In this document: positions 8,555 to 53,403 of the stretch, piece by piece
Layout of the letters: each line of letters opens with the position of its first letter
How positions within the stretch are numbered: the first letter of the stretch is position 1
Source of the DNA: a virus
Virus record (IMG/VR): IMGVR_UViG_3300022074_000037
Span: 1-61,734 of that record
Direction: 5' to 3' (one strand)
Length of the DNA stretch: 61,734 nt
The notes under the pieces: generated by a model
Seen by the model: only the letters and a program-made list of their open reading frames with translations
Told to the model about the DNA's origin: nothing
The model's database searches: none
Made by a program: the position numbers and the translations under genes

Positions 8555-9085
8555 ATGGCTGAAGTAGAATATGGCGGAGTGAAACTTACAGGAAGTAAAT
8601 TGTTTATGATTATCCCACTGGTATCCATGTTAGGTGGTGGTCTGTGGGCAGGCTTTGAATTTTACAAAGACTACATGGACATGAAGGAACAAATACAGAG
8701 TTATGTCGCACCAGACTTATCTGAATTTGATAAAAAACTTGCAGTGTTAAGAGAAGAAATGATTGCACTTGATGAGGGTGTTGCAACTTCTGTTGATGTT
8801 ATGAGAGAAACCAAACATGACTTGAGAGAGGATTTGGTTCGTATGGAACGTATTCTTGACAAGGTTGAGAATGACATTGATGTGGTTGAAGACGAAGCAA
8901 CTTTATTAATGGACAGGACTAAGAAAGAAACCAGAGAATTAATTCTTGATGCGAACAACCGTTTCAATGATAAGATTGATGGTATGGAAGGTTATGTCAA
9001 AAGAGAACTGCAACAACTTGAAGACGAAATGAATAGTAAGTTGACTAAGGCCCTAGACAACCCACTGGCGAATCGTAAAAACTAG
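8555..9085 (+). CDS. Membrane-anchored coiled-coil protein
   Basis: A 176-residue protein with one transmembrane segment (residues about 16-36, LFMIIPLVSMLGGGLWAG) followed by about 120 residues of charged coiled coil (REDLVRMERILDKVENDIDV). RBS is AGGAG. Paired with the similar but oppositely oriented membrane coiled-coil protein at 9117. No enzyme motif. Confidence 0.75.
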   Translation: MAEVEYGGVKLTGSKLFMIIPLVSMLGGGLWAGFEFYKDYMDMKEQIQSYVAPDLSEFDKKLAVLREEMIALDEGVATSVDVMRETKHDLREDLVRMERILDKVENDIDVVEDEATLLMDRTKKETRELILDANNRFNDKIDGMEGYVKRELQQLEDEMNSKLTKALDNPLANRKN

Positions 9086-16602: not shown

Positions 16603-16631
16603 GTATATGTAATTGAGAGAAAGGACTTCAA

Positions 16632-19449: not shown

Positions 19450-19668
19450 ATGGAAGTAAGGGTCAGAAAGGGTAGAGATGGTAAACCAGATGTTAATGGT
19501 GCCATTCGTGTACTAAAGAAGAAACTTATGAAGGAAGGGTTCTTTCAAGAACTAAGAGCCCGTGAATCTTTTATGAGTAGGGGTGAAAAGAAACGCAAAC
19601 AAAAGGCCGCAGGCCGAAGACGTTGGTTGCGTAATCAGGCAAAACTGAAGGATGAGAGAGGTTACTAA
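19450..19668 (+). CDS. rpsU: Ribosomal protein bS21 homologue
   Basis: 72 residues, extremely basic (MEVRVRKGRDGKPDVNGAIR ... KKRKQKAAGRRRWLR). The order of a short N-terminal strand, helix VLKKKLMKEGFFQELRARE and a Lys/Arg-rich C-terminal helix is that of bS21 (about 70 residues), the small-subunit protein near the anti-Shine-Dalgarno that helps initiation. Phage-encoded bS21 has been reported in marine phages; it may replace host S21 and bias translation to phage mRNA. Starts right after the upstream stop. Confidence 0.85.
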   Translation: MEVRVRKGRDGKPDVNGAIRVLKKKLMKEGFFQELRARESFMSRGEKKRKQKAAGRRRWLRNQAKLKDERGY

Positions 19669-21327: not shown

Positions 21328-21786
21328 ATGGCAGTGAATACATATACACCTTTACTACATGAGGTGCTGAAGAAAGTTCATAATGCAAAGACTAAAGAGA
21401 AGAAGATTGAAATTCTTAGAGAGAATAATAGTGATGCATTGCGAATGATTATTAAGGGTTCATTTGACCCTAAAATCGAATGGATTTTACCACCTGGCGA
21501 AGTTCCTTTCAACAGAAACGAAGCCCCAGATGGAACTGAACACACTTTACTCTTCCAAGAGTCAAAGAAGTTATACAGGTTCATCAAAGGTGGTGACAAC
21601 CAAACACCGCAATGGAAGAAGGAACAGATGTTCGTTCAGATGTTGGAAGGTCTGTCTCAAGGCGAGGCAGAGGTGGTAGTGGCCGCAAAGGATAAAAAAT
21701 TACATCAAGTCTATAAAGGACTTTCGGCGGTTGTTGTCAAAGAAGCGTTTGGGTGGAATGACGAATTTGTTGACCCAAATAAGTAA
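21328..21786 (+). CDS. DUF6433-like conserved T4-type phage protein
   Basis: 152 residues from ATG 21328 (GGAGAC upstream). NTYTPLLHEVLKKVHNAKTK, then SDALRMIIKGSFDPKIEW and PPGEVPFNRNEAPDGTE, a pattern I recognise as a family conserved beside rnh in marine T4-like phages (DUF6433). Function unknown; conserved linkage suggests replication or transcription. A promoter and a gene-less transcript follow. Confidence 0.8.
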   Translation: MAVNTYTPLLHEVLKKVHNAKTKEKKIEILRENNSDALRMIIKGSFDPKIEWILPPGEVPFNRNEAPDGTEHTLLFQESKKLYRFIKGGDNQTPQWKKEQMFVQMLEGLSQGEAEVVVAAKDKKLHQVYKGLSAVVVKEAFGWNDEFVDPNK

Positions 21787-21792
21787 AACTTC

Positions 21793-21821
21793 TTGACATT
21801 TTGGTACTGATGAGGTACTAT
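21793..21821 (+). promoter_or_regulatory. Sigma70-type promoter for candidate small RNA
   Basis: TTGACA (21793-21798), N17, TACTAT (21816-21821). No TGTT-N5-AACA palindrome. Nothing convincing is coded before the terminator at 21922. Confidence 0.8.
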
Positions 21822-21827
21822 GATTAA

Positions 21828-21949
21828 AGACTTGGTAATGAGGTTGTTATGAAACGGAACACGACTCCTCTCTCTCTCACTTTCAGTGTTCCAGTGATTC
21901 GGCGTGATTTGCTAAAGTCTTGGGGGGAAACGAACTTTCCCCCCTTTTT
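21828..21949 (+). ncRNA. Candidate small RNA with CU-rich loop
   Basis: A promoter at 21793 and a strong terminator at 21922-21949 delimit a transcript of about 120 nt. It contains a perfect 7-bp stem GGAACAC (21856-21862)/GTGTTCC (21886-21892) whose 23-base loop includes CTCCTCTCTCTCTC (21865-21878). That loop is complementary to the GA-rich Shine-Dalgarno leaders of this phage, for example AGAGAGGAG at 53388-53396 and GAGAGAGG before 51593. It resembles an antisense or anti-SD regulator; no expression evidence. Confidence 0.55.
21922..21949 (+). terminator. Strong intrinsic terminator
   Basis: Nine-bp stem GGGGGGAAA/TTTCCCCCC, loop CGAAC, five T. Preceded by no convincing ORF. Confidence 0.95.
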
Positions 21950-21997: not shown

Positions 21998-22026
21998 TTG
22001 ACATTGTTATCAAAACATAGTAGCAT
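21998..22026 (+). promoter_or_regulatory. Early promoter with spacer palindrome
   Basis: TTGACA (21998-22003), N17, TAGCAT (22021-22026). Spacer palindrome TGTTATCAAAACA at 22005-22017. Confidence 0.8.
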
Positions 22027-22056: not shown

Positions 22057-22485
22057 ATGAATTACGTTGTTGTAGAGGGTGGGAACAAAGTCCAGAGAGA
22101 CATTGCCGAGAAGGTAGTGAATTTCATGATTGGTCAGTTGTTACCACGACATCGTACACTGGATATTACAGTTCAGTTAAACAAGATGAATGATGACGCA
22201 ATCGGTTACTGTCAGATGGAAGATACCAATCGTGAGTTCATCATCGAAGTTGACAAGACCATTGGTATCAAAGAGTTGGTGACCACAATTTGTCATGAGA
22301 TGATTCATGTCAAACAGTATGTCCGAAATGAAATGAACGATGATTTGGTCGAGAATGGCCAGGCCGTTTGGAGAGGTCGTAAGGTCAACCCAAACACAAA
22401 GTATTACGACTTACCTTGGGAGAAGGAAGCGTATCGTCTACAAGACAAATTTGCAAACCTAGTATGGAAAGAGGAGATTATATAA
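22057..22485 (+). CDS. Putative zinc metallopeptidase (HExxH)
   Basis: 142 residues from ATG 22057, preceded by GAGAAAGAGAG. The helix TICHEMIHVKQYVRNEM carries the HExxH zinc motif, with a downstream Glu (PWEKEAYRLQDK) that could be the third ligand. Size and layout resemble small SprT/ImmA-like zincins. Target unknown; it heads an early operon whose promoter has the spacer palindrome, as does the second zincin at 42465. Confidence 0.75.
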   Translation: MNYVVVEGGNKVQRDIAEKVVNFMIGQLLPRHRTLDITVQLNKMNDDAIGYCQMEDTNREFIIEVDKTIGIKELVTTICHEMIHVKQYVRNEMNDDLVENGQAVWRGRKVNPNTKYYDLPWEKEAYRLQDKFANLVWKEEII

Positions 22486-28732: not shown

Positions 28733-28944
28733 CGCCTTAATACGTCCGTGTGGGGTCACGGTTAACTCCACAACACAGAGACACCGCATCCTAGGCAAGC
28801 ACTGTGGTACTATAGACCTCTGTGTCAACACGAAAGGAGAAGGGTGGGTTAGTCACCACCTTGCAACAGTCGGTATATATGACTGCTCTGCTGTATAAAA
28901 TCAGATAGAGGGTGACTCCCTCTATCGTCTTAAAGGAATATAAT
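28733..28944 (+). ncRNA. Structured non-coding region, candidate RNA
   Basis: 212 bases without a credible ORF between a membrane-protein gene and gp33. In order: TGTGGGGT...ACTCCACA (one G-T), ACACAGAG...CTCTGTGT enclosing ACCGCA...TGTGGT, GGTG...CACC, CAGTC...GACTG and GATAGAGGG-TGACT-CCCTCTATC, which sits just before the gp33 Shine-Dalgarno (AAAGGAA). Five adjacent stems in one short region suggest a functional RNA or structured leader. No known RNA family is recognised and no T-run follows the last stem. Confidence 0.45.
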
Positions 28945-29166
28945 ATGGAAAAATTGATGACACCAAAAAAGTTCTCACTTGCAGTGGAACAAGTTGTTCA
29001 AGAGTGTGGTTGTTCTCATATGGAAGCAGTACTAGATTACTGTGAGAAAAACAACATCGAACCAGATACCATCAAACCCCTTATTACAAAATCACTGAAG
29101 GAAAAGATTGAGTGTAATGCAAGGGATTTAAATTACCTACCAAAAGTTGCACAGTTGCCCGTATAA
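28945..29166 (+). CDS. 33: Late transcription coactivator (T4 gp33-like)
   Basis: 73 residues from ATG 28945 (AAAGGAA upstream). MTPKKFSLAVEQVVQE, SHMEAVLDYCEKNNIEPDT and KSLKEKIECNARDLNYLP follow the pattern of gp33 in marine T4-like phages. gp33 bridges host RNA polymerase and the sliding clamp for late transcription at TATAAATA promoters, which are abundant here. The gene order gp33-gp59 and nearby gp32 repeats T4. The match is by pattern, so slightly uncertain. Confidence 0.72.
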   Translation: MEKLMTPKKFSLAVEQVVQECGCSHMEAVLDYCEKNNIEPDTIKPLITKSLKEKIECNARDLNYLPKVAQLPV

Positions 29167-32638: not shown

Positions 32639-32674
32639 ACTAAATACTATTGAAGTCATCAGTAGGAGAGAGAG

Positions 32675-33157
32675 ATGATTGAGGTAGTCGCCGCTGTGTC
32701 AGCGGCATCGAGCGCCTTTGGCGCCATCAAAAAAGGTTTTGAGGTCGGTAGAGATATTGAATCCATGGCAGGCGATTTAGGTCGCTGGATGGGTGCAGTA
32801 TCAGATATCAAGAAGGCCGAAGAGTATAATAAAAAACCACCCCTGTTTAAAAAACTGTTTGCGGCCGGTTCTGTTGAAGAAGAGGCCATGCAAATATTCA
32901 TGGCCAAGAAGAAGGCCGATGATATGCGTGAACAGTTACGTCAAATCATTACCTATACTAGAGGGCCAACTGCATGGCAGGAGCTCTTGAAAACAGAGGC
33001 GGATATACGCAAGAAACGTCAGAAGATGATTTATGACCAAAAGGAAAGACAACGTAAGTTTGTAGAGTACACACTCGCATTTATACTTGTTGCGATAACA
33101 TCTGCCTTAATTGTTTGGGGTATCTATTTCATCATGGATGTAAAAGGAATGTTGTAA
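32675..33157 (+). CDS. Conserved phage protein with C-terminal membrane anchor
   Basis: 160 residues. Ala/Ser-rich N-terminus (VVAAVSAASSAFGAIKKGFE) followed by DIESMAGDLGRWMGAVSDIK, PPLFKKLFA, a charged helix and a membrane segment (LAFILVAITSALIVWGIYFI). A conserved neighbour of tail genes in marine T4-like phages as I recall; function unknown. GGAGAGAGAG leader. Confidence 0.75.
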   Translation: MIEVVAAVSAASSAFGAIKKGFEVGRDIESMAGDLGRWMGAVSDIKKAEEYNKKPPLFKKLFAAGSVEEEAMQIFMAKKKADDMREQLRQIITYTRGPTAWQELLKTEADIRKKRQKMIYDQKERQRKFVEYTLAFILVAITSALIVWGIYFIMDVKGML

Positions 33158-42431: not shown

Positions 42432-42464
42432 AACTATAGAAACTGAGAGAAGAGGTTCTATATT

Positions 42465-43115
42465 ATGTACAACAGTTCAACAGATGCCTACCAAGCGGCT
42501 GCAAAAATCATGTCTCATGATTATGCAAACAAGTACGCTAATTACTGGTCAAAGAAAAACAAGGTAATTAAAACAGGTAAGGCCAACTTCAAAGATGCCG
42601 GTCGTCAAAAGACCTACAATGCAGAATTCGCTGCCATTGCAGAGTATCGAAACAAATATCCCAATGACGTAAAATTCAAACGATTGAACTGGAAACAGTC
42701 AGAACGATATTTCAAGAAGATTGCAAAGTCTAAAACATATCAGGCATTGTGCAAGAAAGAGGATGCGTCACGTTATGGTCGATTAGACCCACAACTTGAA
42801 CTTGCACACTTTCGTGGACGCACCGCTGGACAGGCGACTTGGTATGGTACAATGCGTCTTCAAGAGAACAACTGTCCTTACACAATCATTCATGAGTTCG
42901 CACACTTGTGTGGGAATATGCATCATGACATTGGATTCCGTAGGGATGTAATCAAACTGTCTTCACGGTTCTTAGGAACTGAGTTTGCAAAAATGTTAAA
43001 AGGTCAGTTTAAGAAGGCCAAACTGAAAGTTACCGTATCGCAACACATTATGACACCAGAGAAGTGGATTGAGAGTGTGATGCGTATGGAGAAAATACGA
43101 GAAGGAAATATATGA
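42465..43115 (+). CDS. Putative zinc metallopeptidase (HExxHxxGxxHH)
   Basis: 216 residues. The C-terminal half holds TIIHEFAHLCGNMHHDIGFR: an HExxH with a further His at the metzincin-like spacing. The N-terminal half is helical and Lys/Tyr-rich. A zinc-dependent peptidase or SprT-like fold is likely. Second HExxH protein under a spacer-palindrome promoter (the first is at 22057), suggesting early attack on host proteins (inference). Confidence 0.75.
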   Translation: MYNSSTDAYQAAAKIMSHDYANKYANYWSKKNKVIKTGKANFKDAGRQKTYNAEFAAIAEYRNKYPNDVKFKRLNWKQSERYFKKIAKSKTYQALCKKEDASRYGRLDPQLELAHFRGRTAGQATWYGTMRLQENNCPYTIIHEFAHLCGNMHHDIGFRRDVIKLSSRFLGTEFAKMLKGQFKKAKLKVTVSQHIMTPEKWIESVMRMEKIREGNI

Positions 43116-51561: not shown

Positions 51562-51592
51562 ATATGTATAGTCAATGAGAGAGGTACTAAAA

Positions 51593-53174: not shown

Positions 53175-53388
53175 AGTGAAAAACTACATGATGGACATTG
53201 AAGAGAATGTCTATGACCTTGTTGGTCTTGAAGATAAGATTTCAGAATCAGAAGATGTTTCTGAAGTGAAGTCTTGGGTTGTTGACCAACTTGGACTGAA
53301 GACACATTTCGATATTGGTATCGCCGAAGGTGCGGTCACCGAAATGTGGAATGAACTTTGGGGCAACTATCAAGATTGCCCTTACTAA
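53167..53388 (+). CDS. Small early-type hypothetical protein
   Basis: 73 residues from ATG 53167, eight bases after AAGGAG (the ATG at 53161 is too close to it). Acidic helical (MDIEENVYDLVGLEDKISES ... GIAEGAVTEMWNELWGNYQD). No family. Confidence 0.7.
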   Translation: MGKVKNYMMDIEENVYDLVGLEDKISESEDVSEVKSWVVDQLGLKTHFDIGIAEGAVTEMWNELWGNYQDCPY

Positions 53389-53403
53389 GAGAGGAGAATA
53401 ATT

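Follow-up and report, generated by a model that had tools for sequence, protein, structure and literature searches.

The window, i.e. the whole stretch of 61,734 bases analyzed here, is a virus record with T4-type genes (Table 1) and belongs to the T4-type marine phages of bacteria. The gene calls used were crude. Rfam models matched the window at a tmRNA (two models; permuted, alphaproteobacterial type) and at three tRNAs. The S21 gene is also annotated in the phages Melnitz and HTVC008M. A putative small RNA gene is flanked by a DUF6433 gene and an SprT-like gene, and its main predicted target, a late gene whose product is predicted to be a tail-anchored membrane protein, lies 10.8 kb away.

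Table 1. Positions of the putative small RNA, its predicted pairing sites and the genes discussed (window numbering unless a locus is given).
Feature	Position	Strand	Remark
Sigma70-like promoter (TTGACA, 17-nt spacer, TACTAT)	21793..21821	+	motif scan
Putative small RNA gene, about 120 nt	21828..21949	+	5' end inferred from promoter
Outer stem, 5' arm AAGACTT	21827..21833	+	partner 21915-21921
Outer stem, 3' arm AAGTCTT	21915..21921	+	partner 21827-21833
Loop-closing 7-bp stem, 5' arm GGAACAC	21856..21862	+	2/7 pairs changed on both sides
Loop-closing 7-bp stem, 3' arm GTGTTCC	21886..21892	+	fold
Predicted unpaired 23-nt loop with pairing motif CTCCTCTCTCTCTC (21865-21878)	21863..21885	+	fold, conservation
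Intrinsic terminator GGGGGGAAA-CGAAC-TTTCCCCCC plus T tract	21922..21949	+	scan
Main target gene, 160-aa late protein, C-terminal hydrophobic (membrane) helix	32675..33157	+	phrog_32327
Main pairing site AGTAGGAGAGAGAGA, covers SD and A of start codon	32661..32675	+	best window site outside sRNA locus
Late-promoter-like octamer ACTAAATA	32639..32646	+	T4-type TATAAATA in many relatives
Secondary site, leader of ORF 42465-43115	42438..42459	+	-21.8 kcal/mol
Secondary site, early leader of ORF 16632	16614..16630	+	pairing prediction
Site GAGAGAGG, 8 nt, before 51593	51577..51584	+	also at 8824, 19654, 19699
Site AGAGAGGAG, 9 nt, before 53404	53388..53396	+	once on + strand
DUF6433 gene	21334-21786		upstream neighbor of small RNA locus
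SprT-like gene	22057-22485	+	downstream neighbor, same strand; Pfam score under cut-off
Ribosomal protein S21 gene	19450-19668		Pfam 5e-9; ~2 kb upstream of small RNA
RNase H gene	20472		T4-type gene of window
Late-promoter regulator gene	28912-29166
Single-strand binding protein gene	31649
Baseplate protein genes	55816 and 57720
Group D membrane-protein ORF	L241:301-453		spans CU motif; homologous ORFs in L242, L244

An earlier note on this DNA had described a promoter and a terminator bracketing the segment, and our scan recovered both (21793-21821; 21922-21944), the terminator hairpin being followed by TTTTTCTTTT. Terminator-like sites between 19000 and 25000 numbered 13 vs 3.3 in shuffles, and promoter-like sites numbered 21 vs 15.8, which is barely above chance. 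The predicted fold of the RNA (-38.5 kcal/mol, z -2.26) consists of an outer stem, an inner stem that bears the 23-nt loop, and the terminator. The 7-bp hairpin that the same note had drawn around the loop was confirmed (21856-21862/21886-21892), with the CU stretch unpaired at a predicted probability of at least 0.99. That note mentions neither the outer stem nor the recurrence of the CU loop in relatives nor the much better pairing site at 32661-32675. The Rfam covariance-model search of the window gave no gathering-level match at the small RNA locus, Yfr1 included. Judged from its sequence, the RNA has its own promoter and terminator, as is expected of a trans-encoded sRNA. The SprT-like gene adjoins it on the same strand, and the RNA might thus be a cis-acting leader or attenuator of that gene, an account to which we give almost no credence: the terminator and a separate promoter at 21998 led us to reject an SprT gene leader, and in L073 and L078 more than 540 nt separate the RNA from the SprT-like gene downstream.

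Relatives of the locus were collected by searching for the SprT-like protein, which left 80 IMG/VR loci, in each of which up to 700 nt upstream of the SprT-like gene were inspected. The CU motif was present in 63 of the 80; 11 loci were without it and 6 were too short to tell. All but one of the 63 motifs were enclosed by a predicted hairpin and were mostly or wholly unpaired. Alignment distinguished three kinds, A, B and C; a fourth variant is D. Group A carries the window-like motif ACUCCUCUCUCUCUCAC, group B carries ACCUCUCACUCUCUCUC on an AUAUGG/CCAUAU stem, and group C carries ACCUCUCUCUC-AA-CUCUCUCUC on a long stem, after which a tRNA-like sequence sometimes follows. By eye, no terminator separates the CU hairpin from this 3' tRNA-like sequence in L036, L068, L072, L073 and L076, so the RNA and the tRNA may be cotranscribed. 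Promoters were present at the corresponding place in the other groups; the promoter pattern search found none in L048 and L050.

The loop is the part of the RNA that persists. The earlier note had named a loop less conserved than its flanks as grounds for refutation, and the comparison gave the reverse: stems diverge and the CU loop is retained across groups. In the group C alignment, all 10 invariant columns fall inside the CU loop. The loop core lacks G and consists of CU/YC dinucleotides, with a repeat number that varies by one CU unit. Within group A, the outer stem is paired in 98% of alignment cells with almost no variation. The covariation score of the group A stems was 0.126 vs 0.057 in shuffled alignments (reached by 0/500 shuffles), and 2 of 14 stem pairs had changed in both partners; at least that many also occurred in 111 of 500 shuffles. 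A group A covariance model found group B weakly (E 0.007 to 0.45) and gave no convincing match in HTVC008M, the examined part of Mosig, G007 or G008 (one HTVC008M match, E 0.18). A conserved unpaired seed region, one mark of a trans-encoded sRNA, is present.

When 2.9 million viral contigs were scanned twice for exact motifs, 24 and 28 stretches were returned. Among these were 43 new loci, 40 of which had a promoter-like sequence together with an SprT or DUF6433 neighbor; the misfits were L105, L116 and L125. In L105 and L125, whose setting differs, the identical 17-mer lies within one arm of a perfect 13-bp hairpin with GAGAGAGAGGGG. The isolated phage Melnitz, which infects OM43, has a C-type copy of the RNA, whose promoter is at MZ577097 38511. 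Bacterial genome contigs contained four exact 17-mer matches of the motif, and none of them was seen displayed in a phage-like closing hairpin in predicted folds; a bacterial sRNA acquired by the phage was rejected on this basis, as far as the exact motif is concerned.

The segment had been described as containing no credible ORF. In the window, an SD-like GAGG and an ATG (21849/21850) do start a frame across the loop, and throughout group A an SD-like GAGG/GAAG accompanies an invariant ATG, as if a small gene were the conserved thing and the RNA no more than its message. Among 16 group A loci, the ATG-started frames that cross the motif are spread over all three reading frames; thus no peptide is conserved there, and a conserved group A peptide was ruled out. 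The earlier description is to be qualified accordingly. The RNA is noncoding in group A and not in group D (G022, G024 and G028), where the motif lies inside an ORF of 51-52 codons for a small membrane protein and its codons encode (D/N)SSLS. This membrane protein of 51-52 aa is the second point in favor of a coding gene, which we nevertheless regard as a highly improbable general explanation given the three-way change of frame in group A. In two of three longer folds, the group D motif is predicted to lie in a hairpin loop; it has GATTCG/CGAATC-like flanks and a G6/C6 terminator, and the locus has DUF6433 and SprT neighbors in G024 and G028. Because its loop also pairs with the target leader at a predicted -16 to -18 kcal/mol, the group D transcript is a message and possibly a regulator as well, i.e. 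a dual-function RNA. Melnitz-1 CDS 65 (L082:4863-5042), annotated as hypothetical, overlaps the RNA in Melnitz; this annotation is probably spurious.

Among 74 window genes with at least three orthologs each, pairing of the loop with orthologous leaders ranked gene 32675 first (mean -21.7 over 6 phages). A protein search for relatives of this gene left 80 loci with 77 readable leaders, 66 of which contain a late-promoter-like motif. The group B loop ACCUCUCACUCUCUC faces the target leader GAGAGAGUGAGAGGU, and 20 of the 77 leaders contain at least 12 nt perfectly complementary to this loop, the CAC interruption included. Such a match precedes exactly these 20 among all 18,902 ATGs in the 80 loci. 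The G-free, YC-rich core with its varying number of CU units would also suit a sponge that titrates an RNA-binding protein such as Rho, which prefers YC, or S1. We consider this very improbable, since a protein site needs no exact group-specific interruptions such as the CAC of group B, which match the leader in trans.

When each contig was scanned with its own loop (both strands of the contig or contig part, with the sRNA locus masked), the target leader ranked first in 10 of 11 group A, B and D contigs and second in G028; with shuffled loops it came first in 1 of 36 runs. Over twelve contigs, cognate pairs averaged -22.1 kcal/mol vs -19.0 for all pairings (p = 5e-5), although permutation p-values overstate independence because the contigs are related. 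Pairing energies vary slightly between analyses as the boundaries of loop and leader vary, and they are to be read with the caveat that purine-rich SDs favor any CU-rich RNA. Shuffled leaders matched the native energy in 0 of 500 cases for G012, G002, G003, G013 and G029 and in 1-7 of 500 for G001, G039, G022, G024 and G028. For the window, 15 of 500 did so, which makes its match the least striking one in group A. In G002, 15 consecutive pairs are kept through two A-to-G changes that give G-U pairs. Covarying complementarity to a distant mRNA, as expected of a trans-encoded sRNA, is thus seen in groups A, B and D and not in the group C contig G006.

In G006, the target gene is present with a leader devoid of pairing (rank 797; energy matched by 289 of 500 shuffled leaders), and neither Melnitz nor the examined part of G005 yielded the target protein. 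The target therefore differs between groups, and group C must use others. G036, G037 and G038 have GA-rich target leaders (-14 to -18) and no CU RNA detected in their contigs, so that the leader alone is no proof of the RNA.

A Pfam search gave nothing for the target protein of the window and weak scattered hits for other members of its family. Its AlphaFold2 model is all helical (pLDDT 78), and the model matched only unnamed or uncharacterized phage proteins at E <= 0.001. In other phages, relatives of the gene lie beside terminase genes or three genes before an L-alanyl-D-glutamate peptidase. A role of the protein in lysis is only a guess.

The group A target leader is predicted to present the pairing site in a hairpin loop on a GUCAUC/GAUGAU stem that holds the AUG, which suggests a loop-loop contact with the RNA. 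The same predicted fold could serve activation, in that loop binding could alter access to the start codon; pairing would then open an inhibitory leader hairpin, or else shield the late mRNA from decay. We consider activation decidedly unlikely, because the SD itself is inside the paired segment and because the predicted fold of the group B contig G003 has no hairpin closing over the target start codon.

The earlier note had proposed action on early mRNAs, citing complementarities of 9 nt before 53404 and 8 nt before 51593, both of which exist as stated. Pairing with the ortholog of ORF 16632 is also predicted in G001, G002, G006, G011 and Melnitz. In the window, promoter-proximal leaders bound the loop better than other leaders by -4.9 kcal/mol (p 0.00015; 0/200 shuffled loops equal) and were still better after correction for binding of the 16S anti-SD (p 0.006). 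The corresponding excess in Melnitz was not significant after this correction (p = 0.19), and promoter leaders of HTVC008M showed no better loop binding. The sRNA-bearing genomes share a promoter class with a GTT-N5-AAC element (mostly TGTT-N5-AACA) and short GA-rich leaders, which was not found in HTVC008M, in the examined part of Mosig or among the G007 and G008 promoters. The 41 unique leaders of this class averaged -14.7 kcal/mol with their own group's loop vs -7.5 for 74 others. Loops fit own-group leaders slightly better (p 0.008, uncorrected for kinship).

These leader statistics, and the finding that the best sites in the group C contig G006 are leaders of early-type genes, are what would be seen if the RNA were a generic SD antagonist, i.e. 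an anti-SD mimic. Without preferring any one target, such an RNA would cover the GA-rich leaders of numerous early mRNAs of the phage (or host) and so switch off a whole class of genes, as T4 RegB does by cleavage. However, the GTT-N5-AAC leaders are also the stronger binders of the 16S anti-SD (-10.5 vs -6.4), so that SD strength accounts for much of the signal, and the excess left after regression on anti-SD strength (p = 1.3e-4) comes from pooled related genomes. The long group-specific match and the covariation at one late gene would be left unexplained, and we regard a generic antagonist as unlikely. The term anti-SD mimic, used in the earlier note, is partly apt, but the conserved pairing uses CUCUCUC plus group-specific interruptions, not CCUCC. 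Since SD strength explains much and Melnitz gave a non-significant result, we kept early leaders as secondary targets: the proposal of a CU loop pairing with GA-rich SD leaders is well supported, whereas its best target is the late gene 32675 rather than an early one.

The palindrome TGTT-N5-AACA occurs at 33 window sites vs 3.1 in Markov sequences, including 16581, 17337, 22005, 42410, 43626, 51539 and 52506, and seven of the sites lie inside TTGAC promoters. Of the spacings compared, only 5 stands out, with 33 sites against 1-7 for the others. Melnitz has 80 such sites, and none was found in the examined part of Mosig, G007 or G008. The palindrome is perhaps the operator of a phage regulator. 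The sRNA promoters are without this element and possibly have a separate operator: their spacers (21799-21821 in the window, and those of relatives) tend to be palindromic, with 4.93 of 6 arm pairs vs 4.05 (0/200 shuffle sets), a statistic that rests on related sequences and is a lead only.

Taken together, we think it likely that the region encodes a stand-alone trans-acting antisense sRNA of the phage that represses translation of the late gene 32675 and for which early leaders are secondary targets. That the loop base-pairs with the target leader is strongly supported at the sequence level because loop and leader covary, and their joint change across relatives points to a built-in RNA brake on the late gene. 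We infer transcription of the RNA, repression rather than activation, and timing. A host-type sigma70-like promoter would drive an RNA of about 120 nt that ends at the intrinsic terminator and displays the unpaired CU-rich loop on a stem. By pairing with the GA-rich leader of the gene for the late membrane protein, this loop would cover the SD and, in group A, extend as far as the start codon, most likely keeping ribosomes from binding. Given its sigma70-like promoter and the T4-type late-promoter motif ahead of the target gene, the RNA probably builds up before the late mRNA does. It would then brake translation and thereby delay or limit the late protein, initiation being blocked until the late mRNA outnumbers the RNA, and the shorter matches to early leaders would represent secondary targets. 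A broader reading, which we put forward tentatively, is that of a fast-evolving RNA timing device in T4-type marine phages: an early-type RNA, in group D also the mRNA of a membrane protein, whose loop is selected to match the ribosome binding site of one late membrane protein and which brakes a late step such as lysis, possibly through a loop-loop (kissing) complex.

No publication on this RNA was found in the literature, as covered mostly without subscription papers. Yfr1 of cyanobacteria is an Rfam family with a CUCCUC-type motif. The phage RNA differs from Yfr1 in the continuation of the motif, in its phage origin and in having no gathering-level Rfam match; according to the part of the source at hand, Yfr1 is likewise a short sRNA defined by one conserved motif (PMC6778093). 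The rhizobial sRNAs SmelA075 and SmelA099 carry CCUCCUCCC as an anti-SD loop, and, in the sections of the report available, their hairpin loops resemble the phage RNA in presenting a conserved pyrimidine anti-SD motif on variable stems (PMC3927594). As far as these sections go, they differ in being bacterial genes with three or four hairpins, whereas the phage RNA has one displaying hairpin, a CUCUCUC core and one covarying target (PMC3927594); CCUCCUCCC loops in several hairpins were not found in the predicted folds of the phage RNA. T4 RegB, as described in excerpts of a T4 review, resembles the phage RNA in acting on SD regions of phage mRNAs during T4-type development, but it is a protein, a nuclease that targets GGAG in early mRNAs, whereas here an RNA would act with a late gene as main target (PMC3014915). 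The same excerpts state that no small trans-acting RNA from T4 had been functionally characterized and suggest that genomes of T4-related phages might supply sRNA candidates (PMC3014915). VpdS, PreS, c4 RNA and STnc6030 are, like this RNA, phage-encoded regulators of phage or host RNAs; in the accessible portion of the source they belong to temperate phages or prophages, whereas the present RNA belongs to a T4-type marine group and shows phylogenetic covariation of loop and target (PMC12197685). The available part of the Melnitz paper has no occurrence of 'sRNA' or 'small RNA'.

The RNA is thus a trans-acting sRNA candidate of T4-related phages: a target can be named for it, it occurs in several lineages, loop and target covary, and one carrier, Melnitz, has been isolated. 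If this is true, early-to-late control in this marine phage group would have an RNA layer, and the transition between coding and noncoding could be traced at one locus.
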